From assembly GCA_017506865.1 (NCBI GenBank), contig JAFCMP010000033.1, forward strand, positions 248,001-312,000: 64,000 nucleotides of DNA, in the 5' to 3' direction. Position numbers and translations under genes: made by a program. This DNA is from Tribonema minus (Eukaryota; Sar; Xanthophyceae; Tribonematales; Tribonemataceae). Of the stretch, positions 2,241 to 43,845 are shown piece after piece. Every line of letters starts with the position of its first letter. The first letter of the stretch is position 1. The notes under the pieces are model-generated. The model saw nothing but the letters and a program-made list of their open reading frames with translations. It was not told where the DNA came from and made no database searches.

Positions 2241-2251
2241 GGTACTTTTTA

Positions 2252-2290
2252 TTAATTCTCGCTCAGGGCGCGAAAAAGCCCAGATGATTG
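2252..2290 (-). repeat. LINE 3'-terminal motif, copy 1 (end of the 2.3-5.4 kb element)
   Basis: On the minus strand it reads CATCTGGGC, then TTTTTCGCGCCCTGAGCGAG, then an AT-rich stretch ending in AAAAAGTAC. It is the 3' end of the full element and the reference for the three other copies. GGGC and GCCC around the T-run can pair as a small hairpin. Confidence 0.65.
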
Positions 2291-2353
2291 GCATCTAGCT
2301 GTAAGGAATCTACATGTCGTATGACAGTCTGAAAGTGTCGCAACGACAACCAC

Positions 2354-7037: not shown

Positions 7038-7166
7038 GTACATGGAAACGAATCATAAGATCGTAGAGCTCTAAGTGGCAAGGGATGGCTAGCCGCAAGC
7101 CTTCCGCCAATAACCTCGGTCGCCGCTGCTGCAGCCATTGGCCACGAGTCAAACAGTGCCATCATA
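7038..7166 (-). repeat. dispersed ~125-bp repeat, copy 1
   Basis: Read on the minus strand it starts GGCACTGTTTGACTCGTGGC, passes GCAGCAGCGGCGACC and ends near CTACGATCTTATGATTCG. The same order of words recurs at 23.6, 34.85 and 61.3 kb. No long ORF and no clear terminal inverted repeat; the repeat could be a SINE or MITE-like element. Confidence 0.75.
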
Positions 7167-7284
7167 TCCACAGTAGTCAAAAGACTTCCGTGTGCAAGCT
7201 TTATAGCATTCGAGGCGTGTACATACCTCGAGACGCGTGAACAACACTTGTAGATTCTGGCTGCAGATCCATGGACATCCACCA

Positions 7285-14694: not shown

Positions 14695-17595
14695 ACCAGC
14701 GGCAGCAGCAGCAGGGCTCTTGTGCTCGCAGAGGATGAGGTCGCCGCCGTCCTTGCAGTGGAAGCATACGTCCTCCTCGTCCCTCTTGCGCCAGTACCTG
14801 CGGGGGGGGGGGGGGGGGGAGCGTCGCCGCATCGCATTCCACGAACGTTCCTTGAGGCGTGCTGAGCGTGCGTTCCACAAACGCTCCTTGAAAGGCGTGT
14901 TTGGGGCAGGACTGATACTTGAGGCATAGTTTGAGAAAGTAAGAGTCAATGACAAACTTGGCCGCTGCCACACACCACCCGATATGCGACAGGCGCGTGA
15001 GCAACGCCGCCACTGATAGTGGACTGGGACATCAAGTTCAACATCAACTTCAACATCAACAATAATCTCGTCTCCATGGCGCACCAGCGCGTCCAGTAGG
15101 AATGTACTGGAACACCGCCACTGCACCTGCCTAAACTTGAGGGCTTGGCTTGTTGACCTCTCCCGATAGACTCAACTTTCCAGGGGTTGCCGTGGCTTCT
15201 CAACATCTGGACGACGCCGACTGCACTCCGCGGAGCTGTGACGTGTGCGCTGTTCGACTCTGACTCCGCTTTGCGACTCTGACTCACCTCTCCGGATGGC
15301 ACAGCGCCTCCGCGAGTGGAGTGTCCATGACCCGCACTCTGTCAGCGTCCCCGCGAGTAGAGCAGCCATGACCCGACGTCAATCAACGTTTATACATGAA
15401 TTCACGGCCCAGACTCAGTGATCGTCCATGACCCAGACTCAACGACTGCGACTCCAACTCACCTCTCGGGGTGGCACAGCGCGCGCGCATACAGGCCCAT
15501 CAGCACGTCCTCCTCCAGATCCTCGTCCGCCTCCTTGCCGGGGCGCGCCGGGAACAGCGCTGGGCCGTAGTACAGCGCCGCAGCGCTGGCGCCCGCAGCG
15601 CTAGCGTCGGCGCCAGCGGCAGCACCCCCAGCCTGAGCACTGCCTCCGCCCCCCGTACCCCCCGCGCGCGCCCCAGCACCTACCCCCGCCGCGCCGCCAG
15701 CGCCCGCAGTCCGCGCTCCGCCGCCGCTGCCGCCCGCAGCGCCGCCGGCTGCGGCAGCAGCTCTCCGCGCAGCTTTGCCGCCGCCGCCGCCGCCAGCCGG
15801 AGCGCCGCCGCCGCACTGAGCGCTGCCGCCGCCCGCCGCCGATCTCTCCGCAGCTGCGGCAGCGCCGCCGTCGGCCGTTTTGCCGCCGCCGCCAGCAGCA
15901 GCGCCCGCTGCGCCGTGCTGAGCACTGCTGCCATCCCGCCTGTCCGCCGCTGCTGCTGCTGCTGCTGCTGCTGCGCCGCTGGCCGCAGTGCGCTGCGCGG
16001 ACATCGCGCGCTCCGCGGCCCAGGCACGCTCCGCCGCAGCTCTGGCGGCGCGCGCCTGCCGCTGCACTTCCTCAATGACCTCGTCCAGGGTGGGTGTGCT
16101 GAGCGCTGCTGCTGCTGCGGGCCGCGCCGCCGCGAGTTTGCGCTTCTTCGGACGGTCACCCTCCTTGCCGCTGCCGCCGCCGCCGCTGTCGCGTTTCTTG
16201 CCGTCGCCGCCGCCGCCGCCGGTGCTGTCACATTTCTTGCTGTCGCCGCCGCCGCCGATGCTGCCGGTGGTGCTGCCAGCGCCGGAGGAAGTTGAGCTTT
16301 TGCTGACGCGTTTGGCGGCAGCGGCGCTCTGGTGGTTATGCGTCTGTAGGGTAGCGCGGGGGCGGCGTGAGAACGGACGGCAGCGTTGCTCAGCGCTGCA
16401 ACTTCACATTGTACTGAAGGCCGAGGGCAAGGGCCAGTGCTGACTGGCATCAATGCAGAACAGGCATTGAAGTCCTCGAATATTCATGCGACATTTGAAA
16501 CACGCCTTGGGAGCGGATACTGACCCCCGCAAGCAAAGCAGCAAACCTATGCCTGCTATGGCGTGGGCAAGGCACTCAGGCGCAAGCAGCACGACCGCTC
16601 CGCAGATCCACTGCGCATTTTAAGTAGTATTCATGATGGCCGTAAGGTCCCAACACAGCTGGCCAGCCTCAGCCCATGACAACTTCAAGAACGAGCACAA
16701 CTTCTTCAACCTTGCGCGTACATACCTTGGATGTCAGCGGTCCACTAGAACCATCATGAGGGGCCTTGATGCTGCTATCCTTGGGTGTCTTGGTATCATC
16801 GCCCTTTGACTGGTTCTTTGAAGGCATCGGCGTGCTCTTGCTGGCGTCAGTTGCTCCCTGCGGCGGCTTGGTGCCATTTTCCCTGGGCTGCTGCTTGCCG
16901 AGCACAAGTTTCTTATCGCCTCCGGTATCACCGCAAGCATCCAGGGCCGTCGCTTTCACGACAACGTCGCCTGGCCCGCCCCGCAACGCCTTGCTGTTGA
17001 CGCTATCCGATCGCTGTTTCTTGTCAGTTTTGCCGTCGGATCCCGCCTGCGTCGTGGCCTTGTTGTCATCACTCCTCGGTCGTTCGATTCCAGCAGCTGG
17101 TTTCTTACCATCGGCATCGCCGCCTGCTGCATCCAGGGTCGTATTGCTACTGCTGCTGCCCGATTGTGGTTTTGCTGGCGCCGCAACAGGGACGTCACCA
17201 GTTGAAGTTGAAGTTGGTGCCTTGTCGTTCTGTTTCCCAGGCGGTTGTTTTCTGGTGCTGCCGTTTGATGCATCCGGATGTACGTTGGCTTCGCCACTCT
17301 TGGGCTGCGCCTTTACTGAGACCATGTGTGCCTCGCTGGTGTCGCTCGATGCATCATGTGGAACGTTGAAGGCGTCGCCCTTGGGTCGCTTCGTCCCTTG
17401 CACCGAGTTTTTTCCTCCAGTGGTGGTTGATGCATCTTGGGACACCGCAACATCATCGTCTCTCGGGCGTTTCGCTGTGATCATTGCTACTGTGTCATCG
17501 TCAGAGTCGTAGACGCTGATCGGTGTTGGCGTGCGCACCGTGTCGGCGGTGCTGGCTTTGACAGCCTGCTCATGCTGCTTCGCGACCGGCGCCAT
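13386..17595 (-). CDS. PHD / double zinc-finger nuclear protein (NERD-like), 5' four exons
   Basis: Exons 17595-16726, 16343-15463, 14797-14342 and 13517-13386 join with phases 0, 2 and 2; the next junction is also phase 2 and the 3' part is unresolved. Residues 1-290 (exon 1) are disordered, rich in D, K, S, T and Q. Exon 2 has a KR-rich patch (RPKKRKL, a possible nuclear signal), a short helix (TLDEVIEEVQRQ) and long Ala/Gly tracts. Exon 3 opens with RYWRKRDEEDVCFHCKDGGD, then LILC: the start of a PHD finger. It ends with CKAYHRACL and LLCMRH, the second half. Exon 4 continues with SCSVCSKASAKHCRFCPQGL. This order matches plant NERD/zinc-finger CCCH-44-type proteins (PHD finger, then W-C-x-x-H-C-S-x-C). 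In plants those bind histone H3 and act in small-RNA-dependent chromatin silencing; the same role here is inference. The expected SWIB/Plus3/GYF parts were not found. Confidence 0.7.
14400..14720 (-). repeat. Gly/Ala/Lys low-complexity insert inside the PHD finger
   Basis: About 95 codons of GCN, GGN, AAG and CAG triplets lie between EHKS and CCKAYH, where family members have about four residues between zinc ligands 3 and 4. The frame is open throughout. A cryptic GGTGCC...CAGCAGCAG pair could in principle excise part of it as an intron. Confidence 0.6.
14801..14819 (-). repeat. homopolymer C tract at the exon 3 acceptor of the PHD gene
   Basis: An uninterrupted run of about 18 C (minus strand) ends in GCAG directly before exon 3, so it forms the whole polypyrimidine tract. 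The length is prone to sequencing error. Confidence 0.8.
15280..15480 (-). repeat. echo of the 3' end of PHD-gene exon 2 with donor
   Basis: The true exon end reads GCCACCCCGAGAG|GTGAGT. A second copy about 165 bp into the intron reads GCCATCCGGAGAG|GTGAGT and is followed by similar intron sequence (GAGTCGCA). It is the same kind of duplication as seen in the SPX-EXS gene. Confidence 0.7.
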
Positions 17596-18277: not shown

Positions 18278-21200
18278 ATGGTGCAGTTCGGGCTCAAGCT
18301 GCAGGACAACATAGTGGCGAAGTGGGCGGACCACTATATGGACTACAAAAAGCTGAAGACGGAGCTGACCAGGAGGTATAAAGCCTGGGAGGCGGCAGCC
18401 CTGGCGGATGCGAAACAGAACAAGCTCAGGTACGTATGGTTTGCAAGCTTTTGCATGTCTTCCTGCCGTGTCACTAGCGCGTCTGCCAGCAAATGACCTC
18501 AGGTTTTGTTGCATTGGTAGGACTTGTGCTTTACGCATGGGAGTTTCTCTGAAAGCGACCCCACTTTCATGTATGTTGCATGCAGTTTAACCTCATGCAC
18601 AGTGGGTCAGCATACTTTTACATGACGCGAGTGCATCTCTGCAGGCAAGTTTGCAAGCTTCCCGCTGCTGATGCACTTTGTTGACAGCATGCCGATGCAA
18701 GTTATCAGGTGGCCATTGTAGAAGCTGAGTGCAGGCCTCCTTCACACCTGCATGCGAAAACAGTTGTGGTGCTGACAGCGGAGGTGCACGCAATGCGTCA
18801 TGTGCCACTCTATAGGGTGTGGCATCAATTGCTTCCACAGTTGTGGTGGCAGCGCTCCCCGCACCTGCGCATCCACCGAGTTTGCCTGTCAGACACATTA
18901 CAGCATTCGCAATGAGGACTGACGCCCCCACCAGACCTTGGTACCACTTAGAGCTCACGACCTGCTTCTCAGCGACCTGCCTGTCACAACAGCACACCTG
19001 ACCCGCGATTTTCGCCTGCTGCCTCCACTGTTGCTGTTCTGACTGCCGCCCCTATCGCACGACGCAACACACCTGTCGGGACCGTGGGAGCACAGGGGAC
19101 TCAATGGAGCGCCCATGAATGAACGCACAGGGTGAGCCCACTCACGCCGAATGCGCCGTTCATCAGCGTGAATTAATGAATATTTCATCGTCATGAATTG
19201 CTGAATGCCGAGCGCTGCTGCTGTCATGGTTCCCCTGCGCGTGTGCGTCTCCCGCTCACGACGCGCGCCGGTGCGAAATGCGCTGCGCGACAGCAGTGCC
19301 TTCTTGCCACCTGCGCTGCACACGAAAAGGGGCTTCCAGAAGTCCTTCTGCATCGCTCAGCAAACTTTGCAATTATTCTGCGTGTTTGTCTGACTGCTGT
19401 CGGCACGCTGCGCCGCCACAGTGCTACACAACTAAGTTTGTGCTGAGACAGCACTTTGTGACACTGTTTTGCGGTGCAGGCTGCTGGCAGCCTCCTTGGG
19501 AGTGAAGAGCCCCGGTAAGCTGGAGGCGAAAGCGAGCCCGGGGCGCGGCCGGAGCCCCAAGAGGGGGAACAGCGGGGGGGTCGAGGAGGAGGAGAGCTTC
19601 AAGAGGTGAGGGAAGGGGTGGTGGGGGGTGCTGTGTCTGCAAAGTTTAGTTTTGTAGCAATTTGGCGGCGCAGCGTGCCAGCTGCAGTCGGACGGACGAC
19701 CCCGCGAACATCATAATACAGAAACTTGATTAAGGGTGGTGAAAGGTGGTGCTATCTTGTGTGACTGGGTTGCACAATCTGCGCAGCGCGGTTGCAGTCC
19801 CGCATGTTCAGTGCAGTTGGGCAGATAGAGAGTACAGCCTGAGCAGTAGACGGCTTCACGCAGATGCTCGTCAACACTTGAAGTTTGGTGGACACTTGAA
19901 GTTTGGTGGATCGCCTTCGGCCGTGGGTGTTGTGAGACGATGAGATTGGTTGCTGCAGAGGCCTTGACGGATACTGGTTAGAGAAGAGTTCAAGTCCCTG
20001 AACATGGCAGAAGCAAGCCAGAACATGTTTGAAAGTTTGGATAGGGGTTTGAAGGATTCCACCAAGCGCATCATTGCACGAAGCCTGGCACACCCGCTTC
20101 TTTCTGTCTTTCAGATAGCGTTCAAGGACTTCATGCATGTGGGTAGCTGAGCTATATACTTGCAGCTCCCGTCCGGCCTTGTTACTTGATTATGCGTACG
20201 GCGATGAGGGCAATGAAGGCGCACAACATGTTGAAGTCTGATGATTGCAGCCCGTCAGCAGAGGTGCCCATGTGCTCATGTCCGCTACGCACACACTTCC
20301 ATCGGCGTACATTCGTGTTTTGCAATCTCAGCGGGCACACAGTTTCACTCGATCACAATGCCTCGCTTCACCCCCCCCCCCCCACCACCACCGCTGTCTC
20401 CGCAGCCCAGTCACCGCACAGATCAATCTTGGTGTGAATTTTGATGGTTGAAGTCTGTCAGCAGAGGCACCTATATCATATTGTTGCCTTCAAACGATCA
20501 CCGAGCTTCACCAAACGCAGGCAGTTTCTAGTCACGCCCTTGACGCCTTGCTCCACCCCATGCCCCTACCGTTGCTCCTGCAGCCTGATCATCGCGGAGA
20601 TAGACAAGGTGGAGGCGTTCTACGTGCGCACGCACGACAGCCTCGGCAAGGAGCGCGACAATCGCATTTTGCCATCTCAGAGGGGATTGCTGACTTCAAC
20701 TAAGGGCGCACACTTTCACTGGATCGCACACCCAATGCCTCACTGTGCCCCCCTTACTGTGCCCCCCGTCCCCGCCGCCTCCATGCCCCTGCCACTGCTC
20801 CCGCAGCCTGATCATCGCGGAAATCGACAAAGTGGAGGCGTTCTACGTGCGCACGCGCGACAGCCTTGGCAAGGAGCTCGACATGCTGCTGGTCGGGGAA
20901 CTGTCAGGGCCGTTCCGCATGCGCCGCCCCACCCTGGGCAGCTCCGACTCGGAGCAGCTGGAGTCCATGCGCGGGTTCAGCGAGGACTACTACGACGGCA
21001 AGTGTACTGATGTTGTGCTGGGTCTGTACACTCCGTAGCAGCTGGAGTCCATGCGCGGGTTCAACAACGACTACTACGACGGCAAGTGTACTGATGCTGT
21101 ACTCGGTCTGCACTTGGTGTGTACCGCGACCCGCTTGGCAGTCCATGCGCGGGTTCGACTACTACTACAACGGCAAATGCACTGACTCTGTACTCGGGCT

Positions 21201-24200
21201 GAATGCAGGCTGGACTGCGAGCGGCTCTTGCAGTATTGTAGCTGGAGGTTGCAGGAGCGTGCGGCAGTGTTCCGAGCTGTTCAGCCCTGACTGGGAGCAG
21301 CCCCTGTGAGCACACTAAGGGGCAGTTTGCTGCTGGCAGGCTGCACTTGAAGTAGGGAAGTAGCTGTAACTTGAAGTGCCGTGACGTGGCAAAACCCTAC
21401 GTATGGCGTCCGCAGCCTCCAGCTACCTTGTGCATGCCATTGCAGCAAGGATTGCCGCTGCGCTTGCTGCGCACAGTGCTGATGCTGTGCAAGGGCCTGA
21501 GTGGGTTAGGGTGTAGGGTGTGGTGGGGGTGTTGCGGCGCTGGAGCAATGCGAGGCAAGCCTTCTAAAAGTCAGTCCTGGACTGCATCTCCCTCACAACG
21601 TGTACTTGAGGTGGAACGGTGCAGTTGCGCTTTGAAAGCTATCTGGTGTCCGGGTGTCTGTCCGCACAGTGCCAAGGGGCGGCCCGTCCAGATGACTTGA
21701 GACTCATGACTCAAGACTTGTGTGCAGCGCAATCTGTGCCCCCGCGCGCCCCGCAGAGCCCGTGCTGATGCCCAAATTTGAAGCAACTCATCACCTTGGC
21801 ATGCGCCAATCTACTTCAGCGAGAACCATGCTCGACTCGGAACCTCACAGCAGAGAGCGCCGCTGCTGTACGACTCCCGACTCGTGACTCGCAGAACCCG
21901 CGCCGCGGAGGCCCTCGCCGCAGCGCCGCAGCTCCATGAGCAGGGCCACGGGGTCATTTCGCATGAAGAAATCGCACATCTTTGCATCGCAGCACTGCGT
22001 GACGCCACAACTGCAGGCGGCCTCGCGGGAGACGAGCGCCGCCGACGCCTTGGAGTCTGACTCGGTGAGAGCTCTCGTGTGTGAGTGAGTCGCTGGTGTA
22101 TAGATGCCTGGGGGTCTGACGCTGACTCTGACTCTGTGACACTGTGAGTGTGAGCTCTTGGCGTAAACGCTTGAGAGTCTGAGACAGTGGGTGCCTGGAG
22201 TCTGACTCGGCGAGACTCCCGTGTTTGAGTGAGTCACTGGTGTCGCGTAGCACGTGCGTGGAATGCATGTTTCGACGGAGCGCGTGTGATGTGAGGCATC
22301 CGCTTCACTTCAACTTCCAACAGCTTGTTGTTGTGAAGCCGTCCTGTCACATGCTTAGCACTGATATATTTAATCCTGAGCGCTGCTGTCAACGCCGCTT
22401 CGCGCTTTACAGCCTCTATGGCTTACCCTATCTGATGCGTGCTATTGCAGCCTGATGATATCCACCAATGCATAACACGATTTTAGTGACACAAGCCAGA
22501 ATTGGAACAAGCTCCCCCATACAGCCGGGGTCCTGGCCTTCTACTTATACGGTGGCTGCCCTGTGCATTGTTCCCCCAATCGGTAGGGCATTTCAGCATT
22601 CTCTTTGCGTGGTGCACTGCATGCCTTCCCACGAACTCAAACGGTGCCCATGAGCAAACTCCGTTTGGCTTTTGTTCTTACTCTTGGCCCTCGTCAGACG
22701 GGTGACATGCCGCTGCGGCACTGACTGCCCTTGCATCTCATGGTTCATTTTTGCCGTTCGCTCTGCGCTTGGTGTACTGCATGCATGCCTGTGAATTGCC
22801 ATCAACTGCGGCCAGCAGCAACATTTGCTCAGCAATTTCAGAAGATTTTCTTCATTCTCGTGGCTATGAACATATGGGAGGATTTCCGTCATACTCGTGG
22901 CTCATATGTCTGGACAAATGGGAGCGAAGCCTGCCCTGGCACCTTGTGGCGTCCTGTAACAGCAGTTTTGTTGGGGTGCTCCGCGCGTCGCAGCTGCAAC
23001 GCGCCATGAGCGAGATCTACCGGGACCTGACGCTGCTGCGTAACTTTGCCATCATCAACTACACGGCTGCCGTCAAGCTGCTCAAGAAGCACGACAAGAA
23101 GCTCGCAAAGCCTAAAGGTGATGACTTTCTGCATGAATGTTGTCGGAGAGCGAGCCATCATGAATATTGTGTAAGAGCCGAGAAATAGAAGCCAAACGGT
23201 GTTCAAGAAGCACGACAAGCAGAGAAGCTTACACGGCCGCCATCAAGTTGCTCAAGAAGCACGACAAGAAGCTGGCAAAGCCCATGCCTTTTTCTGTACT
23301 CCATGTATTGTAAAGGCGCCAAGAGAGTAACATTGATCGTTGAAGAAGCTCAAGACGAATCGCAAAGCTCAAAGGTGACAAGCTCATGTTCAAACTGTTT
23401 TCAACACTCAAGAAGCACGACAAGGTGTGCTAACCCCAAAGGTGGTGGATCTCTTTTGTGAGCATTATTTGTTGCGCTTGACGAGCACCACAACAAGCTC
23501 GCAGAGCTCAAATGTTGATGGTATCGTATATGAGACTTGCAAAGGTGCCCCTTAAAGCGTACGAGAAGCAGAGCAGCTGGCAGAGCGCCAAGGTGTTGGA
23601 TAACTTATATTTAACTGTCTGACTCGTGGCCAATGACTGCAGCAGCGGCGACCACCGTTATTGGTGGAAGGCACTTGCGGCTAACCATCCCTGGTCACCT
23701 ACATCTCTACGATCTTTCGAATCGTTTTTCATTACGACTTTAAAATAAATGTAACCAATGAGCATAAAACATAAAATAGCTTGCAAACTGCAAGGGTGAT
23801 GACCGCATGAGTGTAGCATCATGGTCATCGGAAAGCACAACAAGAACCTTGAAGCTCGAAGGCGGTAACCTCAGTAATGAGCATGAAAACAGAGTCTGCG
23901 CGCGCAGTATCAAGTGCTCGTGTACACCATCTATTCAAATGGGAGCATCACTTGAGTCCTCCCGTAAATGTTCGGATTCAACGGGGGTAGTCCTCAAACC
24001 CTCGTTACATCCTGCCCCTGAGGATGCAAGCAAGCAGCAGCCACTGCCCACTGATTTTGCCAACTTCATGTTGAACTTCCTCAGGGCCGCGCAAGCGCAC
24101 CACCAGCACCAGCAGCCTCCACTCCATGGGCATGAGCTTCCGCGGGCTGCAGCCGCAGGCCCCCAAGAACACGGACGCGGCAATCCTCGCAGCAGCGCTC

Positions 24201-27200
24201 AAGCCCAGCGATGCCATCACGGCTGATGTGATGGCATACCTGCACCGACAGGTGAGCGGGGGGTTAGGGTTAGCGTTGGACATAGGGTCAGGGTTGGACG
24301 TAGGGTTAGGGTTGGACGTAGGGTCAGGTTCAGGATTGCGGTGATGGGATATCTGCACCGACAGGTGAGAGGGGGATTAGGGCTGTGGTTAGGTTTAAGA
24401 TTGCGATGATGGAATATCTGCATCGATAGGTGAGCGGCGGGGTAGGGTTAGGATTGGACTTAGGGTTAGGTTTAGCGTTGTGGTGACGGAATGTCTGCAC
24501 CGACAGGGGAGTGGGGGGTTATGGTTAGGGTTGGTCTTGGGGTTAGGTTTAGGGTCGGGGGTGAGCGCGTGGACAGAGCGCTGCTGAATGCTACGCAAGG
24601 GATAGGAAGGGTTAGGCTTGAGCGCATGACAGATACAAGGAGTTTTATGTTCTGTGACTGGCGCCATCATGTATACATGCCCCGTCTCGTGGCAGGACCT
24701 ATTCAGCGCCTTGACGAGGTGACGCGCATGTTGAACCATCTCATGTTCTGTAACCGACGCTATCATGCATACATGCATGCCCCGTCGCGTGGCAGGACTT
24801 CTACGCGCTCAAGCGCCTCACGCAAGAAAAGCAGTTTCACTCTGTGAACTGTGAGTGTAACTGACGCCATCAAGCGTACGTGCCCGTCTCGCGGCAGGAC
24901 TTCTACACGCTCAAGCGCCTGGACGAAGTGACGCGCATGTGCGAGAAGGAGTTTTTGTGCTCTGTAACTGTAACTATAACTGACGTCATCACGCATACAT
25001 ACATGCCCCAACTCGTGGCAGGACTTCTACACGCTCAAGCGCCTCGACGAGGTGACGCGCATGTGCGAGAAGGAGTTTGCCATCATGTTCTGCAGCGGCA
25101 ACGTGTCGCAGGCGCGCGGCATGCTGCTGCCGCAGAAGACGGACGAGCGCTTCGACTGGGCGCAGTTCCAACTCGGTTACCATCTTGGCATCGCGGCAGT
25201 CCTGGTGAGCACTAATAAGGCGCTAATGGAAATAAATGAATGTAGTACTGTAGACAAGGGCATGGTCAAGCGTTTTGATTGGGCGCAGGTCCAGCTCTCG
25301 GCTACCACCTGGGCATTGCGGCGGTCCTGGTGAGCACTGTTGTGTGATCGATTTGAGGCGCAGATCAAAGCGTGCACGCTGCGCTGACACGCAACTGGTC
25401 AAGAGAAGAAATTGTGTATGCATGCCGCTACCGCTGAAGTGAATATGCCGAACACAACGGCTGTGTCCAAATCCAGTTGGGGTACCGCCTGGGGAGTGCA
25501 GCAGTCTGCTGATGTTAGCTGAGGGCCCCACATGTGGCTGGGTTGCTGTCAGTGGGCACTGTTTTTGTTGGGATTGATACTTTGTAGCATCAAACATGGA
25601 ATAAGTAACGTGCTGACTAATGATGAGCCTGTGAGCGCGCTGCTGCTCGGGAATCTTGACAAGCACTGCTTGAAAATCTTGACAAGCACAACGACCACAA
25701 CACCAATGTCGTACCAGCCTCTGGTAAACACAGCCTGCTATGTAGGGTTGGCTTGACGTTATGATCAAAGTATATGTTTTTTTTGCTGTTTGAGCCTGGT
25801 CTGCGTGTCGTGTCATGCGAGGCGTAGGATGTGGCAGGCTCTCCTGGCGAGCATTGAGGCAGAGGTAGGAATGCACACTGGGGCTGAGGGCTTGGACAGC
25901 AGGAGGCAAGCGAGAAGCACCAACTGTGGGTGATATGTAAAAGAAATTAATGTTTGCTGCTGCTGCAGACGCTCTCTGATTGCGTCATTGGGAGGCACCA
26001 TTCCAGTGAGGGCATCTCAGGGTGTCGTCCGGGCGCTATGGCAGACTGGAAGAGCACTGCAGAGCGGGGCAGGAAAGTGTGGCGAGGGCTCAGGGCCTGA
26101 GGTTCAAGCGGTCCGACACTTGGGCGTGGCACATGCCCTACGTGAGCAGGCTCTGCACTAAGAGCGGTGTAGTGAGCACTGCAGCCATCATCATGCCGAT
26201 GAGGCCTGTCAGCGTTGGCCAGCGTGACACAGCGGTGGGGAATGTTTTGCAGGCGGTTGCACAGACCAGGCCACGGCGCATGCTGAGGGCATTCCCACTT
26301 GTGTGTCATAAAGAGCAACTTCAAACAACGCTCTGCTGCTCGGCCCCATTAGCCTGAATCTGACCTGGCTCTCACTTCAATCCTGATGTATTGTCGGCCT
26401 CGTGCAGTGCGGAACGCTTTGTGGGCTGCTGCAGAGTCTAGGGCAGAACCCATGCTGACGGCATTTGCACTTGTGTCACAGAACAGCAAACACAAAGGCC
26501 ATTCTGCTGCTCGGCCCTGATTATCCTGACCTTCATCTGGTCGTTGCTCTAATGCTGATTGATGGTGCTCTGTTTCTCCGTGAACAGGCATTCTGGGTTG
26601 TCTGGGACTGCTGCGTAGAGGTGTTCAAGCGGGGAGAGGTGAGCCAGTACACCACTGCAGCGCGCATACACAAGTGTACTCTGGTAGGTCAGGCAACAAG
26701 TGGCTGCGTGGAGCAGCTTGTTCGCAAGGCAACGCGCATGTGATTGACTGCACATGTCATGAATGCGTTCAATCGCTGAGCCCTTGGGTGTGCGCGATAC
26801 ATGCCTACGCGCTCCCTGCAATTGGCTTGTGTCATTGTGCTGAGCAACGCCGCAGTAGCAGTGATGCTAAAGCAGCTGTCAGCATTAGACGGTGCCATTG
26901 TCGGGACTTGCCGCATGCAATTAGCCCCACTGACATTTTGTGCCAAAAAAAAACGTGACCAGTCAAATGCTGGCAAACTGCATCACATAAATTGGCAAAA
27001 ACAATGAGGTCACACTTTTTGCGCTGAGGGGCCCGAATGCTGCTGCTGCATAATGGTGTGGCTGCGCCTCTTGAACGCAACTTGCTGTTGCGTAACCGCT
27101 GTAACGAGCAGACACGAACCATTGAACTATAGGCCAAACACAGAACAAGCCCATATTCCAACAGCTGGCACAGTGCATGTTCTGCTGTGTATCAGCGCTA

Positions 27201-30200
27201 CGCAGCGTTTGCAAACAACACAAACTGACATTGACAACCACACCTGGCCTGTGGGTACCACCTGTCTAGTTCATTTGCTGCGTAGCTCAGTTTGCTGTGT
27301 CTGTTACCTCTTAACAAAGCAGTGCCATTGCACGCTGCGCATGTTGTTGCTTGTCAACGGTGTTGCCTTTCCCACCACACTCTGTTGCATCTTTGATTTG
27401 CCAAACGGCAGAACTCCCTTTTGCCAAGTGGAGGTCGGGCCACCCTGCCTTCATTCACATCATGCAATTGGTGTCATTGCTGCTCACGTTACAGAGCTGC
27501 TCAAGCATGCACATTTCGCTGCGAGGGCAGTGTGTTCCAGTTGTGCGCTCCAGTCGCCGGTGCATTGTCGTTTCCGGCTTTTTACCGGAGAGTCATGTTG
27601 AAGTTTGGCACGTCACATTCGCTGCTGACGGTGTGGTGCCTCCCCGACGTCACTGCATCTGTCGCGGCAGGATGTGAGCGTGATGGGGCAGCCTGCGTTT
27701 AGGGTCTACAGGTGAGATTTCATCCATTCACTTCACGGGTGACGCACCATGAACACATCACCAACTTCATAAACTTGACTACACACTGGCACTGGCAGCG
27801 TTGCGCGCGACTGAGAGCATGGGGGTTGGTACACCAGAACAGTCTGCGCACCTGCGCCAATGGCGTGCTGTCATGCTCCGGCATAGCCAGATGCATCGGA
27901 AAAAACGTGGCGCACGAGGACACTCAAGCCGTCTTTCATGGGGCACCAAAGTCCCCTTCAAAATTAATCGGGCGTTGCTGCATTGAGCCTGCACCATGCA
28001 AAGGTCAGCAGTTCTGCACCTTTTCGTTTCGAAGAGTCCGTGCCCGATTTGCGTGGCCGTTCTCTTTGCCTCATTTTGAGGCAAAAGTCCAGGTCACTTC
28101 TCTTCGAAGCTGGCGTAGATTGAAAAGGGGCGTTTGGGCCCCAATCCAGGGCGCCTGATTTGTTTGCCATAAAAGACGGCCTCAGTACTGCAAAACATAA
28201 TCTCATTCTCATCTGCCGACATTGTTGATCAGTACCACAAGCGTGAGCGCGCCTGATCCCAGCCTGGAGTGCTCTCCCATTTGCTCCCTTGGCACGCATG
28301 GATGCAGATGTGGTGTAGCGTGTCATGTGTGATCATAAAAGTACACAATTAGGGTTAGGGTTGCGGCTCAGCATTGCTCGTCAGCGCATGCGTTCCTCGA
28401 CAATGGCTTCGTGCGGCAATCACAGGCATGCAATTCGTAGACACTTTTATTTATTTATTTTTTGGCTGTACCATTTCCTGGCTCAGATGCGCAATCTGCT
28501 TGACCCGCTCGTCGGCTTCATGAAGCTGCTGCCGTGATGTTGAAAGGAAGGGGTGTCTTGACTGTCATTGCCAAGGTCTATGCTATAGCTTTAATGCAGT
28601 ATACACCTTGCTGACTCAAGCTGCGTATGCTCAAGGCACCTCCATAACTCCCTACGCCTGTCAGGCGCGGAATACATTTCTGTCGCTGTGCACTGCTGCT
28701 GCTTGGTGCTGGGCCTTTCCTACCATTAGTGAGCAAGGACAAATCGCTGTTTGCAATAAAGCACGTGTGAGCACGAGGCACTGCTGCTGGTGTCTGCCCA
28801 CACCTGCCCCCTACAAGTAGTTGAAAAATACTTCAGGTACTGAGGTTTGTTTGATCTCGTGCATGTGAGCGCAGGGGTGTTGCGGGCCTGCTGCTGCTGC
28901 ACTGGGCGTGGGGCTTCAGCGTGCTGGTGTGGACGCGCACGCGCATCAACTTCATCTACCTCTTTGAACTCGACCCGCGCCACCAGGTACGCTGGCGTGT
29001 ATGTATGTATGTGCTGTTGCGTATGCTGCTTACCGTTCAGATGACATGGTGCATCAACTTCATATACCTCTTTGAACTCGACCCGCGGCACCAGGTACGC
29101 TGGACTGTATTCATGTACGTATGCTGCTTACCGTTCGTGCTGACAAAGTGCATTAAATTCAGCCAAAGTGCATCAACTTCAGCCAAAGTGCATCAACTTC
29201 ATCTACCTCTTTGAACTCGACCCGCGGCACCAGGTACGCCGAGGTGTATGTATGTATGTATTGCGTGTGCTGCTTACCGTTCCTGTTGACAAGTGCATCA
29301 GCTTTATATAAGTACCGCTTCAACTTCGACCTGCGGCACCAGCGGCGCTGGGGTGCATGCAGTATATATGATTGCATGTACTGCTTACCATTCCCGTTGA
29401 GAAAGTGCGTCAAGTTCAATTACCTCCTTCAGCTCGCCCCGCGGCACCAGGTGCACTGGAGTGCACGCAGCATATATGGTTGCCCTTGCCACCCAATTGT
29501 GGAAAGCGCTGTGGCGTCCTCCCATTTACACAGCAGCTGAGGGACCTCTATAGTGATGGCACTGAGGACGAGGAGAAAGAAGCTGCTGACATCAGCCCCT
29601 GTAGCAACTCTGGCTCCATCGCTGAGCTGAGCTGACAAGCTTGTGCACACTCAGCAGGGCAGCCTTCCCCTTCTGGGGTTACCGGATCACCCCATAGCAA
29701 AGGCGATGATGGCAGGGGGACAATCAGAATCGCACACAGCGGCAACGCTGGAGGCCATTCATTTGCCGGCGGAGTTCATGCCTGTTTGGTGTGAGTCTGT
29801 GCCCGCAGCTGACGCCCTTGTCTCCGATGTCACCTCGACAGCAGTACCAATTGGTTTCGAGCGAGTCCTGGTGTGGTGGCGGCTGCAACATCTGACAATG
29901 TCTGTGAAGAGCAAAACTGCCTGTTGTGCTTGTTGTTGAGCCCACCACAGTTTGCCTCGCCCGCTTGCGCTGCAGGCACCGCCCATTTCGATCTTCAACG
30001 ACGCAGCCCTAGAGACGGTGGTGTTTCTGGCCAATCTGCTGGCCTACTACAAGGTAAGAGGTTCCAACACATGTTTCATCAACTGTGTTTGTGTGTGCGA
30101 GGTGAAGGTGATCAGATGAACTCGCACTTCAAAGTTGAGCATGCGCTGCACGGAACACCTCTTTCAGGAGCTTGTGGCATTAAGATTGCAATACTTCGAG

Positions 30201-33200
30201 GAGCTGCAATAAGACACCTTAGGCTCTTCAACTGTATGCCCTGAGTTATAGTAGCAGTAGTTTCGGTTTTGTGACGAGGCGTGAGACTTGTGCTGAGCCT
30301 GTGCTGACGGTAAATCAGCTGCATGCGTGCGACTGACGCCTGCAGTTGCGGAAATTTCCAACCTCAATCCTTACCCTGCTTTGAATGCATCGCATTTGGG
30401 GATTGATGTTTGCACCAATCGCAGCGGCACCTGTAGACGCAGCACTTGCATCAGCTCCTCTAGTGATCAGCAGCAAAAATGTGCGCCATTGTCTTGCTCA
30501 CAATACCCATGTGCCCCACTGCAGACCTGGAGCCATTGCAGTTGGCAGCAACGTGGAAACACCCTTTCTTGGAAGTAGTTAGAACGTCCACCCCCCCTTT
30601 CACAGATATAGAACAGCAATGCATAAGGATAGTATCTGCTGCTCTTTTCCAGGCAGGTGCTTGGACCAATGTCTGCTCACTTTCAATAAACGCCCGTCAT
30701 GACATTCCCAATTGATTCTTATTCTACTTCACTGTCGCATTGACAAACTGCTGGTACTAATTGTTGGCCGCACTGCGCGCATACATGACCGACGCTTGTC
30801 ACAACGCAGGCACAAATGGGTCTGCCCACGCGCAGCTTCGTCCCCCCTGGCATATACCCTCTGGTGCTGTGCCTATATACAGCCAAGAGGCTCATCTACC
30901 CCATGGACGTCAAGATGGAGGTAGGCGCAATTCTGTCTGCTCGCAACATTGCTCACATGATTATCACGGCACATCAGAGGAGTATAGCAAGAGCGCCAAT
31001 GGAACTGCATGTCAAATCCGTGGCTCGAACCATTATCACGGCACATCAGAGGAGTAGAAGATAGAAGAGCGCCAATGAATCTGTGTTTTAATATCCGTGG
31101 AACACCCGGAGCATTCTACGTGATTACAGGTTCCCCTTCATGTGCCATTCCTTGACTTCAGCCCGTCCCTCAAACCCCCGCTCGTCCGCATGCTGTCGTT
31201 TTCACGTCATGTCAGAGGAGTAGAATGTAGCAAAAGCTCCAATGAAACTGTGTTCAACAATCCGTGGAATTACCAGATGATTCTATTCTATGTGGACGCA
31301 TGTTCTGTGTGCTGAATTGCAGCCCCTGCCCCTCAACCCCCTATCCTTCTGCATCCGCATGCTGTAGTTCGTGCACGCGATGTGGGCCTGCACTCATGTG
31401 CCCACCGCCAATCAGCTGTTCTGTTGCTTACCGCCGCTGCCTTCTAAAGCGAAGTCATGTGTACTTTCGCCGGCGTTGTCGGCAACGCACAAAACCGCCG
31501 CTGTATCCAGCTTACGTGGCTAACGCATCGCATCTCAGTATCTGCAGTGTGCTTGTTGGACTGCAACGCGTGCTCATGCTGTTGCTGCGTACTGCCTTCA
31601 TCGTAAGAATTGACCCAAGCTTCTAGTGCAGATCCGCTGCTGTTCCCATTGTCGCGCGCTGTACAGATCTGGAAAGTACTGGCCAGAATTCTGGTTTCAC
31701 CGTTCTCAAAGGTGAGCGCGGCAGTGTTTCGCACGCCACTGGAGCATTGGCCGTAGCCCTAATCTCAGCCTTGTGCTGGTTCAGTTCAGCTCACTTTGAC
31801 ACTTTGCGCTGAGGCGACCTGGCGATTATACGGGTGCCGCAGCATATGCACCTTGCCACTGACGACACGCATTGCAGCTGCGGATTCGCGGGGTGCCCAA
31901 GGAACTCAGCCCAGTATGAATCAAAACGATAGTGTGTTCAGCGCTGCAAGCTTCAAAGCGGTCTGTTGGTGCATGGTAAGGTGGAGCGCAGTCATTAGCA
32001 GCAAATGGCGCTTAAGTGTTGGATCAAACGCCGTTCATCTGCTGGCACTCACAGCTGTTGCACATGCAAATCCACCACCAGCAACCTCAGCTGCTCACTT
32101 CAATCGCTGCCCGCTTGAAGTGCCACAGCGCACGGGCAGCACGTGATGATACATACATGCCTACCTTGCATACCAGCAGCGTGACCTGTCCCTGTGCTCT
32201 CCTCTGGGTGGGGTTACGATTAGGGTTACATTAGAAACAACGGTATTTGCAGCAGCTGCTTTATCAAGTGACTGCTGCGCGGTCTCGCTGGCAACTGGCG
32301 AACTGGTAACGCAAGTGAACAAATGACTTCATGGTTTGTTGCAGCGACATGCAAGTCAGAGTTGCGGAAGTGTTGCTTGACAGCAAGCGACGAATCTCCC
32401 CGCACGCCACCTGTCACACCTGACAGCACGCCACTTGTCGCCGCGTCCCTCCCACGCCGCTGGACTCCTTTGCACTGAGACGTCGAGGCACTGCTCGACG
32501 CACCGACGGCTCGCCATCTATCTCACCTGACAGCTCGCCACCTGTCACACCTGACATCGCGCCACCTGTCACCGCTGCCCCTGCTCGCAGGTGGACTTCT
32601 TTGCCACGTACTGCGCCGACGTGCTGACCAGCAGCGTCAAGACAGTGCTCGACATGGCCTGGACGATTGGGTTCTTTCTCAGCGGCGACTTCCTCATGGA
32701 TCGCCACGTCTGGATGGCACGCCATAAATCCAACAGCTGGGAACAGGTAGGGTTAGGGTTAGGGTAAATCCCTACATGTATGGTATGAATGAATCCATGT
32801 ATATACATAAGTCCAACAGCTGGGAGCAGGTAGGGTTAGGGTTAGGGTAAATCCCTAGATAGAAGTTTGTGAATAAAAGTATGACGATGCATTTATGTTC
32901 AACAGCTGGGAGCAGGTAGGGTTAGGGTTACGGTAAATCCCTAAATAGGAGTCTATGAATAAATCCATGACTATGCATAAGTCCAACAGCTGGGAGCAGG
33001 TAGGGTTAGGGTCAGGGTAAATTCCTACATCTATAAATAAATCCATGGATATACATAAATCCAACAGCTGGGAGCAGGTAGGGTGGGGGTTACGGTTGGG
33101 AGCCCCTCAGTAGCGTACTCAGTCGCGGCTGCTGGAAGCAGGTGGGGAGGGTCAATGTCACAACAATAAATTGAAGTTTTTCACTGCGAGCACCTCAGGT

Positions 33201-36200
33201 GTAGTACAAGTACTAGGGTGCTAGCCGTCATGAATAGAGTTTGTGGTAATGATGATTGCCAGGCCTTCGTTCCTTGGGCAAAGGCAATGCTCGACACGGG
33301 GCAGCGCTCAACATGACCTGCACAACATGACCTACACAGCAGGCTTCTGCGTCTGTATGCTGGGCAGGCATACTGCGTTAGACCGCGGACTGGTATAGAT
33401 TTGACGATGCACAATAAATCCAGGGTTGCGTGGCTGTCATGTTGGCTGCAAAGTATGACTGGCGATAGCGACCATTAATGTTGATGTGTACTTACGCACG
33501 GAGTCGCGTGCTTGGCGTAGACTCTTTGTCGCAAGCAAAACCTCAAGTGCTGGTGCGTACTCCCCAAAAATGGTCCGGATTGGGCGAAGTGTACGACACA
33601 GGCCCTCACAGTCACAGTGCATGAGTTGCAGCACTGGCACAACTCCGGCGATCAGTCATGTGCGCCTGTTGTATGCACTAACCATGGACTACTGGGCAGT
33701 GCTGGCCACTTTTGTTGTGCTTGAGGTGCTTCTGAACACTTGGTGTCTTGATTGTAGCAGTGCTTAAAGTGTCGAGCTCAGCTGTGTTCAATGCTGCTGC
33801 AGATCATCACGCCCTCGCAGCGCTTGCCTCCATTCACCATCAAGCCGCTTGTATATGCGTGAGGTGCTTCTGAATACTTGGTGCTTTGATCATAGCAGTG
33901 CTTTAAGTGTCGAGCTCGGCAGTGCTTGACACCGCCGCAGGGCCATCACTAAGCCCTTGCAGTTCTTGCCTTCATTCACTGTCGAGCCGCTGCATTCCAC
34001 ATGTGACAACGCAGACTCAGCAAACCCGCTGCCGTTCTTGCGGTCCCTCTGCTGCAGCAATTCTGGTATGTCAGTGTCTTGGTGCCGGCGCTGTGCGTGC
34101 TGCCGCTGTGGCTGCGCTTCCAGCAGTGCCTCAGGCGCTACCACGACACTGGCAAGCGCTTCCCCAACCTGGCCAACGCACTCAAGTGAGCCAAATTAGC
34201 GAGTGACGGTAGATTTTGACTTATTTACTAGGCACAATGAGGCACAGGCCACAGCCACATAATTGTTCCAGCAATGTCTGAGGCGCTACCACGACACCGG
34301 CAAGCGCTTTGTTTCCAAATCTGGCCAATGCGCTCAAGCCGAAATAGGGAGCAACACTTGCTTTCAACTCATCATTCACGCACAATGCGGCACGTAGCAC
34401 TCAAGTAAGCCAAAGCAGCGAGTGACAGTGGTGCTGGCTTGTCATTCAGACGCAATGAGGTATATGCCACGTAAGTATGAGAGGCACAGGCTCTCTACCT
34501 GCAGACTGGAAGCAGCAAGCGCCTCATCAACCTAGTCAATGCACTTGAGTAAGCCAACCAATCCACAGCTTGATCTGCCCAAACCTGTGCCTTGTGAGCC
34601 CTTCAAGTACTGTATCATACTTGAAGATGTGCTTGAAGTATGTTGTTCATGTTCGACTGATTGTTTGCTGAGGCACAGGCGAGGCAAGCATGGCGCCGCA
34701 CGTAATTCGACAGCTGCAATGTGAAAATATGTGCTTGGAAGTACACAGTTTGATGTCAGTGACAATATATACATACTTCAAAGTACCAGATATAACATAT
34801 CTCAAACGCTAAAAGCTTGCACACAGAAGTCTTTTTGACTGGTGGATACGGTGGTACTGTTTGACTCGTAGCCAATTGCTGCAGCAGCGGCGACCACGGT
34901 TTTTCACGGAAGGCACTTGCGGCTGACCATCCCTTGTCACCTGGAGCTCTACGATCTTTTGATTCGTTTTCATACATCATGTCATGCATGCACAGCATCA
35001 TTGACAGCAGTCAAAGACTGCACTTCACGGGGCTCAAGGCTCATTTTTCGATGCTGGTGCTCTGTTGCGTGTGTGCAGATATGCCATGGCGCAGACAGTG
35101 TCCATCTTTGGTGTCTTTCGGCCGCCAGGTACCGAGTCATGGCAACAAGTAGGGTTAGTGGTTTATTGTTTGGCTTAGGGTTAAGTAAGGGTTAGGCCAA
35201 AGTTAAAAGGTAAGGGTTGGGGTTAGGGTTAAGACGCGTTCAGGCCGCCAGGCACAGACAGAGTTGATGATCCATCACGCATGCTGTGCATGTGATTGCG
35301 GAATTTCGGCACCAGCGGCAGGCGCGTCTATTCCGTGCCACACCATCACTGCAAAATCAATCATCAACTGAGGCGGTTCATGCCACTATAGCTTCTGTGC
35401 TTTGTACAAACATATGGTGATTCTTCTTTCACGCAATCTGTGACATTGTGAAATGCCTTCATCTTTAATAGCTGTTTCTATTCTGTTTGCCGCCCATCAT
35501 TAGGCACCATAATTTGATGGCGTTCTCAAAAGTACCTCCATGTCGATATGCTGATCCACGCATTGCATGCCATTCTGAACTGCCTGCATCACTGGCAGTG
35601 ACGTCTGGTGGAACACCTGGTGGCACATCAAGCATTAACATTTACTGAGTGTACCCGGACGTGCTCCACTAGCATTCACTGATTTACGTGGACGTGCAGA
35701 TCTACGCAATTTGTGCCATTCACACAATTGTACTTCGCGTCACTGATGGTGACATCTTACCTGTGCCAAACCATTGCTGCAGTGGCCACCATTGACAGCT
35801 ACAATGGCATCTGGATGGCCCTGCACATCGTCAGTTCGCTGTACTCATTCTGACTGAGCATCAAGCACTAAAACCAACACATAAACTGTTACTGAATCCT
35901 TGCATATGCCCTTCTGAACTGATTTGCCGCACTAGATTTTACTGATGTACGCTGGCCTGCAGATCTACGCAACGCGTGCCATTTTGAGTTTTCTGCGCCA
36001 CTGATGGTGACCTCAACAGATGCGCATCGATGTGCTGCACAAGCATCGACTCATGTACGTTGATGTGCTGATTCACGCAATGCGTGCCATGATTATGAAA
36101 ATTGAGCGCGTCACTGACAGTGACGCCATGCGCCATTCATTGCTGCAGCGCCCACCATTGACGTCTACAACGGCATCTGGATGGCGCTGTACATAGTCAG

Positions 36201-37531
36201 TTCGCTGTACTCGTTCTGGTGGGACATCAAGCAGGACTGGGGCCTCGGCCACAGGAAGCACGGGTGGCTCAGCGAGCGGCGCATGCACAGCAGGTAAACT
36301 TCAACTGTGACGCATGAACAGCAGGTAAACTTGAACTGTGACACACGGACAGCATGTGAACTTTAACTGTGATGCACGGACAGTGCCAACGACAGTGCAC
36401 CTGACCTCAGCATTGGCGTCGATGCTGCAGATAAAATAATATTGTTTTTATTACAGTATGGCTACTTGTTGGAGACAGAAGCATCAAGACTGGGTCTCAG
36501 ACTGCGTCTCAGTATTGACATGAGAAGGACACTGCCTGCCGCACAACAGCAAAAAAGGCGTCATTTATGCCATGTTCACGGCAGCAACAAGTATTACAGT
36601 TCCGCTACATTTGTAATTATAATCCCTATTCGTAGCGCAACGCTGACAAACCCTCCTTGTAGGGTCGTCCAGCAATGTCAGCCTGAGAGCCCACTGTTAT
36701 ATCCCTTCAACCGAAATGCTCAATTACGATAGGCATGTACACGTGACGTCAAGCAACGCCTCGCACCACAATGGGTGGCTTAGCAGAAGGTGCACGCACG
36801 CCTGATGACCTGCAACAGTGAAGCTAAAAGGCAGCCTGTCGCACCGCCATTGGTGTGCACATTGCGACTAAGTGTGCTACCCTCTGGACTATACGTATCC
36901 TGTGATTATGCCGGCTGCCACGCTGTAGCGAATGCGTGCACCAACAACTCACGTGCACATTGGCAGTGCTTGTTGCTCAGCAGCAACACGCCCTCTGTGC
37001 ATGCCCTGCGTTAATTTCCAGCCTAAGTCCGCCCTAGACTACAATGCCACAACACTGACTGAATTAGCTGCATCAACAGCCATCCACTGCTTCTCTGGCA
37101 TTTTACGCTTCCACGCACCTTAATGCTTTCGGCCTGCTGCTGGCCACGAGAATTGAGACCAAGGACGACGAGTCTGCAGTCCTACAGCATCTCCCTATGT
37201 TGCTGCAAAACCGCGCCCGATGTTGCTACAGCAGCGGCTCCACGCACGCAATACGGACTCCGCACCCGCACAAATGTGCACCTTGTGCAGGCGCAGAGGT
37301 CGTTGTACGAATGCGTGTCGCACAGGTGAAATCACTGATGACTGCGTTCATGCAGCGCCAGCACGCAGCGCGAGCGGATACAATTCGCTACGGCGAGTGC
37401 TGCAAGCGTTTTGGCCACTGCCACATCGCTCGCAAAGAGCACTGATTCCGCTCCCTGCTGTTGCTGTGCTGCTGCTATCGTGGCTGTTGCTGCTGCTGCT
37501 CCTGCCGCCGCCGCTGCCACTGCCGCCACCC

Positions 37532-41374: not shown

Positions 41375-42176
41375 TGCGTACGTATGGACTTGTATTTATC
41401 AAGGCCCAAGGGAGGCCGGGTTGCCTATGCAATCGAAAAGCTTGCGTCAACGCAGCAGCCTAGTCTGCGCTGTGCCCTAGGAGTTTGGATACCGGCGCCG
41501 CAACACAGCCCAGCATTCGCGCTCCACGTGTGTATGCCATGACGCGCTCCGCCAACTCCCGCGCCAGCGATATGCTCAGCTCAATGTGGATCTGACGCTT
41601 AGCTAACCCGGCCTTGCGTAACACATCTGCCTTCCCCCCCCCTGAGCACAGTGCTGAGTGCATTGCCAACTCCTTAACAAAAAGGCTTGTCTGCTTGCCC
41701 AGCCGTCCGTACGACTCCTGCACGAATGGCACAAAAGCCCAAGATGACGTCAAGGTGCCGGTGTGGTGCTTGACCTTCGCGTCCTCCCCCACCCCAGCAG
41801 CATCGCCGTCCGTGTTCGACAGAGCAGATCGGCAGCATTCAGCCCTCTATGCATGAGGGACTGTAATGCCACACGATGAGTACAGACACTTAGCGCAGCC
41901 AGCGTGCGTCCGGGGCAATGGCGTGGATGAGCGTGCCACCCGCTGCCAATGACTGCCCGGGTGCGGCGCCCATGTCCAGTATGGCAGCAGCCACGATGAT
42001 TTTGGTTGCAATTTTCATAGACGGGTGGGGCATACAGGGCGAGGTGTGCCCATGGCGGTGCTGTGACGTGAGCCCCACCTCCACGCATGCGATCAGCTGC
42101 CCCAGCCAGCACATCGGGGGCACAACGCGACACACACTGCCCAAAAGCGGTGCCTGCAGCGCATCTTGAGACAGTA
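41375..42176 (-). mobile_element. LINE 3'-end copy A (minus), frameshifted upstream
   Basis: 41460-41822 on the minus strand encodes the C-terminus of a LINE ORF (FVPFVQESYGRLGKQT, then a Leu/Ala-rich end VSKLLGHSAD and a stop), followed by a short 3' UTR ending GGCCTT..TAAATACAAGTCC. It matches copy C closely as far as a TCGAACACGGACGG word. The sequence beyond (41890-42176) is open for 96 codons and may be more of the same element. Confidence 0.7.
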
Positions 42177-42395
42177 CCATGAGCTGAGCATATCGCTGGC
42201 GCGGGAGTTGGCGGAGCGCGTCATGGCATACACACGTGGAGCGCGAATGCTGGGCTGTGTTGCGGCGCCGGTGTCCAAACTCCTAGGGCACAGCGCAGAC
42301 TAGGCTGCTGCGTTGACGCAAGCTTTTCGATTGCATAGGCAACCCGGCCTCCCTTGGGCCTTTATAAATACAAGTCCATACGTACCATGTCTCTA
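42177..42395 (+). mobile_element. LINE 3'-end copy B (plus)
   Basis: Only the last 40 or so codons (ELAERVMAYTRGARMLGCV, ending before a TAG) and the 3' UTR to CCATACGTAC. It is the inverted counterpart of 41375-41600; the two arms are separated by about 580 bp. Confidence 0.8.
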
Positions 42396-43005
42396 TTGTC
42401 CGCAATGAGGACGCTAGCGTCTTCAAGGTACCGGGGTATTGGGCGGACACAGTCATTGACCCAGGGTGTCTGCACTTTAGCAGTGCATACAGTAACAAGG
42501 GAATAGTGCTAGACACAAGTGTGCGCGCACCCACGGCGAGCTCGTACCTGACAGGCAAAACAAATGCCTCGAACACGGACGGCTATGCTGCTGGGGTGGG
42601 GGAGGACGCGAAGGTCAAGCACCACACCGGCACCTTGACGTCATCTTGGGCTTTTGTACCATTTGTGCAGGAGTCGTACGGAAGGCTGGGCAAGCAGACA
42701 AGACTTTTTGTCAAGGAGTTGGCAATGCATTCAGCACTGTGCTCAGGGGGGGGGAAGGCAGATGTGTTACGCAAGGCCGGGTTAGCTAAGCGTCAGATCC
42801 TCATTGAGCTGAGCATGTCGCTGGCGCGGGAGTTGGCGGAGCGCGTCATGGCGTACACACGCGGAGCGCGAATGCTGGGCTGTGTTGCAGTGCCGGTATC
42901 CAAGCTCCTAGGACACAGCGCAGACTAGGCTGCCACGCAAGCTTTTCGATTGCATAGACAACCCGGCCTCCCTTGGGCCTTTATAAATAAATACAAGTCC
43001 ATACG
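42396..43005 (+). mobile_element. LINE 3'-end copy C (plus), 5' truncated
   Basis: Directly follows copy B in the same orientation. It is open from 42506 to 42928 (and further upstream without a Met), with VRAPTASSYLTG, GEDAKVKHHTGTL, SSWAFVPFVQESYGRLG and the terminal VSKLLGHSAD, then the same 3' UTR. The VPFV-E-GRLG type motif is typical of the end of LINE ORFs with a C-terminal endonuclease domain. Confidence 0.75.
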
Positions 43006-43845
43006 TACAGACACTTAGACTGTCACTGTAACGTCAACTGCAGGGTACATTGGCGGCGCCAGCTCACAATGGTTCTTACAGTGCCAGTGTCATGTTGCTG
43101 GTTCTGTGGCACAGGTGTGGCTCAGCTGCCTGCACACAAAACACAATTGTTTCAACCACGTGTAGCTTGATTGTAGTGCAGCCACTGAGCTTAGTTGCGC
43201 ACGAGGTACGGACCATACACATGTGCAGCATGCAAACAGGCATGAAGCCAATACATTGCTGCGCAAAAAATGGTTCACCTTGAACTTCACATATAATTTC
43301 ACATTTTAACTTCATGTTTGAACTTTCATCCCGTGCGCTCGTGTCATGAGTGCTGTGTGCGGTTGCCACGCATGGTTTTGTTTGTCGTCCACAAGCTGCA
43401 CCCTACATGTCGTGTATCATTGCTCGATGCAGTCGTTGTACCCCCATCTGTGCTCTGTGTGCCGGCTGTGCTGCCTTGCCCTTGCGGCTGTGCGTGTGCC
43501 TGTTGCAAGCACCGGTCCGTATATTCGTCCTGGCGGGACTCACATGTACGCTCATATGGTATACACGGTTGAGCGATTGTCATCTTCTGGGCCTTGCTGT
43601 ACGTACATCCGATCCGAGACATTCCCGGATCCGAGCACGGCGCCGGGCACGTCTTCAAGTGGTAGTTCGGCCTGAACGAAAGTTTCGTTTCGAAACAGGC
43701 CGGCGGCTCACAGCTCACAAACAGCGAAAGCAAAGGCAGTGGGCTGGTCTGGGAGTCAACGATTTACAGGCGCGTGTTTTGAGGGAGACGCAAGGGGCCT
43801 CGAAGTCTTCTGACGTTTTAGATTCAAGATATCATAGGCAAGATC
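43006..43845 (+). promoter_or_regulatory. upstream region of the histidine-phosphatase gene
   Basis: No gene assigned. A long frame from 43350 overlaps the first exon in another frame and ends at 44177; it is Cys/Arg-rich and looks like a shadow. At 43682 GTTTCG/CGAAAC can pair as a 6-bp stem with a 3-nt loop about 150 bp before the start codon. The promoter should lie here. Confidence 0.4.

Follow-up and report, generated by a model that had tools for sequence, protein, structure and literature searches.

Decay usually erases the source of an intron's sequence. The window, i.e., the whole stretch of 64,000 nucleotides analysed (C33:248001-312000 of a 158-Mb assembly of Tribonema minus), holds an SPX-EXS gene (gene A) in whose introns a first-pass annotation had noticed repeated copies of the neighbouring exon ends, splice sites included. 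We call these copies echoes. Gene A has a paralogue (gene B) on contig C509, with matched exon stretches 76-88% alike. The A/B alignment shows that intron positions are common to both genes and that the intron sequences are unalike. The exon borders of gene A were fixed by this comparison and not by RNA, for all exons except exon 2 and the exon at 21895-22064, and the total of 20 introns is the count of the annotation.

For every exon edge, taken as 60 nt of exon with 8 nt of intron, a Smith-Waterman alignment to its own intron was made, and the score was compared with those against all other tested introns of gene A and against 60 dinucleotide shuffles of the own intron. This edge test covered 36 edges in 18 introns, introns 1 and 2 being outside it. 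Eleven edges outscored every other intron and all 60 shuffles (z 10-48), nine of them donors and two acceptors, in 10 of the 18 introns. A twelfth edge, outside the test, is the acceptor of intron 2, with a repeat of 103 nt at 90.3% identity. The copies are therefore specific to their own exon, and the eleven introns that had been listed (2-7, 10 and 14-17) all hold them. In gene B the same test gave one weak positive (z 4.3) out of 30 edges. The features of gene A are as follows.

18278-40602, + strand: gene A, SPX-EXS, family of the XPR1/SLC53A1-PHO1-SYG1 type, ca. 21 exons (Pfam EXS and SPX; PDB SLC53A1, 8e-59; paralogue alignment).
20558-20660, + strand: acceptor echo of the exon starting at 20807 (intron 2), 90.3% over 103 nt (repeat comparison).
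21030-21185, + strand: two donor echoes of exon 20807-21001, period 84 (TRF; edge test, z 43).
22193-22243, + strand: donor echo of exon 21895-22064, its GT now GC (edge test, z 12).
23200-23520, + strand: five donor echoes of exon 22994-23117 (edge test, z 35).
24341-24518, + strand: three donor echoes of exon 24085-24251; TTAGGG-like runs follow the donor (TRF; edge test, z 17).
24686-24954, + strand: three acceptor echoes of exon 25022-25204, AG in all, in an intron absent from the paralogue (edge test, z 48).
25269-25338, + strand: donor echo of exon 25022-25204 (edge test, z 25).
26232-26529, + strand: intron-internal local repeat, no exon part (repeat comparison).
29051-29462, + strand: four donor echoes of exon 28875-28986, period ca. 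108, the nearest two 96-98% alike (TRF; edge test, z 34).
30960-31285, + strand: intron-internal local repeat, no exon part (repeat comparison).
32806-33084, + strand: four donor echoes of exon 32591-32746, period ca. 86, GT in all, TTAGGG-like runs after each (TRF; edge test, z 14.5).
33718-33991, + strand: intron-internal local repeat, no exon part (repeat comparison).
34266-34557, + strand: three donor echoes of exon 34058-34185, the middle copy only 18 nt (edge test, z 27).
35772-35867, + strand: one acceptor echo of exon 36149-36293 that has AG and 85 nt of exon sequence (edge test, z 32).
36311-36383, + strand: donor echo of exon 36149-36293, one copy by alignment and a period-31 array by TRF (edge test, z 10).

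The three exon-free repeats in this list indicate that duplication happens without exon sequence too. Repeats within 1.5 kb of each other cover 28% of the region from 20.5 to 36.4 kb against 3.5% of the remaining window, and the copies differ from their exon by 2-21%. Some details of the first description need adjusting. The copied exon part, given as 10-95 nt, measured 8-85 nt in our alignments. The one to eight copies per edge became one to five over our score cut-off, so that eight must include weaker copies that we did not count. The better preservation of copies near the exon held in 20 of 29 untied comparisons within arrays, with no such trend in the arrays at the donor of exon 14 and the acceptor of exon 7. 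TRF found tandem periods of 84, 65-77, 108, 86 and 31 nt in five of the arrays. The repeats are direct, on the same strand and close together, both in gene A and in the kinesin and helicase loci sampled below. A strict head-to-tail layout is clear in several arrays, but many of the echo pairs may lack it: only 11 of 54 sampled pairs have a match length of 0.8 or more of the distance, a shortfall that either decay or local non-tandem insertion can explain.

The median intron length is 948 in gene A and 576 in gene B (paired p 0.005). Echoes could not be made the sole cause of this difference, as A minus B amounts to 463 nt for introns with echoes and 218 nt for those without (p 0.28). Intron 6 (24252-25021) is absent from gene B and has echoes at both its ends; it may have been gained in A or lost from B. 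A mixture of organisms behind the contrast between the two genes was also rejected, since C33 and C509 are alike in composition and have in common a recent repeat of 959 nt at 98.6% identity (2239-3197 in the window, reverse strand of C509). There is a third EXS gene (L001/L013, C401:895494-896669), in which the EXS domain is one open frame without stops.

How far does this extend beyond one gene? The sample consisted, in list order, of the first 20 kinesin matches whose open frame did not exceed 200 aa (ca. 17 genes; one match with three stops was left out, and two of the 20 hold one stop each), and the first 20 such helicase C matches without stops, minus C157, whose echo had already been seen in the match list, leaving 19. 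Echoes within 700 nt were found at 7 of the 20 kinesin and 13 of the 19 helicase internal exons, 20 of 39 together, compared with 41 of 400 random, length-matched segments used as pseudo-exons outside genes A and B. The same kind of segment test gave 9 of 19 exons in gene A and none of 16 in gene B, and 84 of 300 segments inside the introns of A versus 10 of 300 inside those of B. Among the best 30 protein-kinase matches, mostly long open frames, pairs overlapping the exon occurred at 5 of 29 loci (the shortened L032 was left out), three of them strong (L017, L028 and L035) and two weak; in L028 ca. 150 nt around the exon end and donor are present in two copies 81-85% alike. L046-L048 also show local repeats, and they are uncounted because they were picked on a prior hint in the match lists. 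As whole genes, the kinesin on C13 has 53 pairs, 40% coverage and echoes at two of four matched exons, including six upstream copies of one acceptor edge (five 93-95% alike, one 86%), and the kinesin on C141 has 11 pairs, 26% coverage and echoes at four of six matched exons. One exon of the helicase on C68 has three upstream acceptor copies, 95-100% alike over 37-63 nt, and several downstream donor copies. Intron growth by duplication across exon-intron borders, as first suggested from gene A, thus happens and is common, whereas the idea of an exceptional density in a single gene was too narrow, the two kinesins being at least as dense and the paralogue nearly empty. Long, uninterrupted kinase and helicase open frames with equal or nearly equal scores were also seen on C90, C179, C223, C144, C278 and C359; these are perhaps recent duplicated blocks or foreign, possibly virus-derived DNA.

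The repeats cluster by locus. Over the 39 loci, repeat coverage was nil in 13 and above 0.6 in four, and the coverages of the two flanks of one exon correlate (rho 0.53, p 5e-4), which together with the contrast between A and B indicates that proneness belongs to genes or regions. Coverage also rises with the CpG observed/expected ratio of the flanks (rho 0.45, p 0.004; echo versus other loci, p 0.11), which is only a hint. G-quadruplex-like tracts near echoes were discarded as a correlate (1.20 versus 1.21 clusters per locus). TTAGGG-like runs start at or near the donors at 24252-24560, 32747-33096 and 35140-35235, in the first two cases carried within the repeat units. Short interstitial TTAGGG runs recur along contig C1 among the matches listed. 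Contig C2 starts with a long CCCTAA array, so the telomere repeat is probably TTAGGG.

The explanation that we prefer, at a probability of about 0.72, is local duplication in a subset of genes, retained where the exon is spared and followed by neutral decay. In such genes, pieces between some tens and a few hundred bases long would be repeatedly duplicated nearby, in tandem or nearly so, presumably through break repair or template switching. A duplication wholly within an exon would break the protein and be lost; one spanning a junction would be tolerated, since splicing would continue at the copy that remains attached to the exon body, and the splice site attached to the exon would be the site in use. 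This attached copy would stay under selection, the intronic copies would decay like any intron, and later rounds would push older copies deeper, giving rise to a ladder.

The positions of the repeats bear on whether duplication acts at the border itself. In the 39 loci, where the edges are ends of profile matches and not proven splice sites, so that the profile is blurred, coverage was 0.31-0.34 in the outer 30 nt of the match, 0.21-0.32 in the next 300 nt and 0.09-0.18 beyond 400 nt, a drop due in part to the 700-nt limit of the fetched stretches; more than 100 nt inside the match it was nil. With the exact borders of gene A, donors had 0.43 in the outer 30 nt of the exon and 0.33-0.43 over the 180 nt beyond, acceptors had 0.19 in the outer exon and 0.16-0.32 beyond, and coverage was 0.08 at more than 360 nt from any exon edge. 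Neither profile has a sharp peak at the junction. Pairs lying wholly within one flank, which are free of end effects, have a density of 0.21 in the exon-side half and 0.14 in the other (p 0.016, 78 flanks), and gene A pairs without exon sequence cover 0.08-0.12 within 360 nt of an exon and 0.04 beyond. Over distances of some hundred bases, the repeats tend towards exons. When the exon map was moved along each gene and exons with echoes were recounted, gene A had 9 of 19 against 5.8 in the shifted maps (3.9% of shifts reach the observed value), the C141 kinesin 4 of 6 against 2.3 (8.3%) and the C13 kinesin 2 of 4 against 2.2 (80%). A donor bias was dropped as a general feature: gene A has nine donor and two acceptor edges, but the 39 loci have 14 and 15.

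A process linked to the border, e.g., breakage at R-loops or where polymerase pauses close to splice junctions, that preferentially duplicates exon edges would fit the excess over shifted maps in gene A and the C141 kinesin, the fall from ca. 0.4 near donors to 0.08 deep in introns and the lean of intron-only pairs. The fall-off and the lean led us to raise this process above the lower standing that it had before and to bring our preferred explanation down from 0.8. We still regard it as rather unlikely, given the lack of a sharp peak, the C13 kinesin without excess and the pairs in 84 of 300 intron segments of gene A. Furthermore, when one member of a pair sits in a conserved exon, the pair should remain detectable for about double the time expected of an intron-intron pair, so a modest excess over shifted maps is expected anyway. 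This longer detectability, together with exon-anchored arrays that add intron-intron pairs nearby, can produce both the excess and the lean, as could a border-linked process. Growth by border-crossing duplication is upheld as a common event, whereas for the border as its site of action there is a lean and no peak. A different possibility is that the copies function as alternative splice sites or exon ends and have been retained for regulated splicing, and here the decay of the copies is informative. In the 39 loci, exon and copy differ at 57/647, 49/640 and 105/640 sites of codon positions 1, 2 and 3, and at 348/2359 sites in the intronic parts of the same pairs, i.e., divergences of 0.08 for positions 1 and 2, 0.16 for position 3 and 0.15 for intronic sequence. 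Position 3 is close to intronic and positions 1 and 2 are at about half, which fits a neutrally decaying copy next to an exon whose changes are mostly synonymous. Gene A alone has a steeper ratio (26/352, 24/360 and 64/354). On its copy branch, third positions are over-represented (25 of 52 changes when polarised with other copies, 33 of 68 with paralogue B), and in one copy of exon 15 all nine differences are at third positions. Plain neutral decay predicts this excess poorly, although base composition may be an added cause.

The same excess speaks for functional splice sites, as does the state of the junctions. As had been noticed at the outset, many copies keep an intact GT or AG: GT is present in 15 of the 20 distinct donor copies whose junction could be aligned, several of which equal the real donor in matrix score, and AG in the acceptor echoes at 24686-24954 and 35772-35867. 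(Two exon-5 rows that represent one site were counted once; the raw rows give GT in 16 of 21, of which 13 add a stop and six keep the frame.) However, retention of GT is about what 90% identity would predict (0.81 by our own arithmetic), and 12 of the 15 GT-keeping copies would bring a stop codon and five keep the frame, which does not support the suggestion that use of any rival site would leave the protein end unchanged or slightly lengthened. With the divergence classes of the larger sample fitting neutrality and the paralogue almost without copies, we find regulated splicing very improbable as the reason for their presence. Assembly error or chance similarity is more remote still and can practically be dismissed, as copies 2-21% different from their exon, similar echoes on many independent contigs, scores far above those of shuffles and a nearly clean paralogue handled identically all go against it. 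Under local duplication with neutral decay, the copies look mostly like debris that records intron growth. It is possible, though doubtful, that some mutational process linked to genes, through transcription or splicing, keeps duplicating near-exon stretches in some genes only, so that introns would derive to a good extent from the shed edges of their own exons, with the exon as a permanent master copy and the ladder as a dated record.

Minisatellite-like arrays occur in introns, and those described here resemble them in decay and in tandem periods of 31 to ca. 108 nt; they differ in having their first unit fixed in coding sequence and in affecting many edges of one gene. A study on potato RdRp (PMC4974935) describes a single boundary-crossing duplication that made a new intron, and a further duplication of 83 bp inside an intron. 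The likeness lies in a duplicated stretch that extends over the boundary and supplies the splice signals a second time, but that was one event, whereas here there are many decaying copies, at about half of the sampled internal exons, with no new intron needed. A review (PMC3443670) treats the duplication of AGGT segments as a way in which new introns arise (Rogers model, Hellsten 2011, Gao and Lynch 2009). This too is local duplication in genes that yields duplicate splice sites; in that model an exonic unit is turned into an intron, whereas here the unit spans the junction and lands in an existing one. Introners, dispersed mobile families (PMC9860276), share with the echoes a repeated sequence tied to introns. 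When exon 10 and its repeats (28875-29560) were used in a DNA search that skips very common words, only their own place and the paralogous exon were found; on the repeats of this one of eleven introns, an identity with Introners was rejected, there being no near-identical copies in many genes. What the present case offers is the exon as a fixed reference: it tells from where, in what order and how long ago each piece was added, and it lets the rate be compared across genes, sides and paralogues. A further question is how the spliceosome passes donor copies as strong as the real one about a hundred bases away.

Other repeats were seen along the way. What looks like a short interspersed element of ca. 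75-140 nt is dispersed on both strands, its copies ca. 80-84% alike, at 7038-7177, 23616-23728, 34841-34974 and 61286-61361, and also in an intron of the paralogue (C509 concat 15841-15979). A direct repeat at 42180-42385 and 42805-43008 is 90% alike, and a core of 93-96 nt, from 41378-41470 and 42293-42388, matches C509 at 99-100%. In the assembly, light-harvesting exons gave 92 matches and the RuBisCO small subunit family none. RuBisCO large-chain fragments are present, one of them closest to 6ftl, 5mz2 and 1bwv, red-type enzymes of diatoms and red algae. These results point most probably to an alga whose plastid is of the red lineage. Two of these fragments, L093 (C334) and L094 (C112), lie on contigs of ca. 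2 Mb with one TGA per match, and are possibly plastid DNA in the nucleus.
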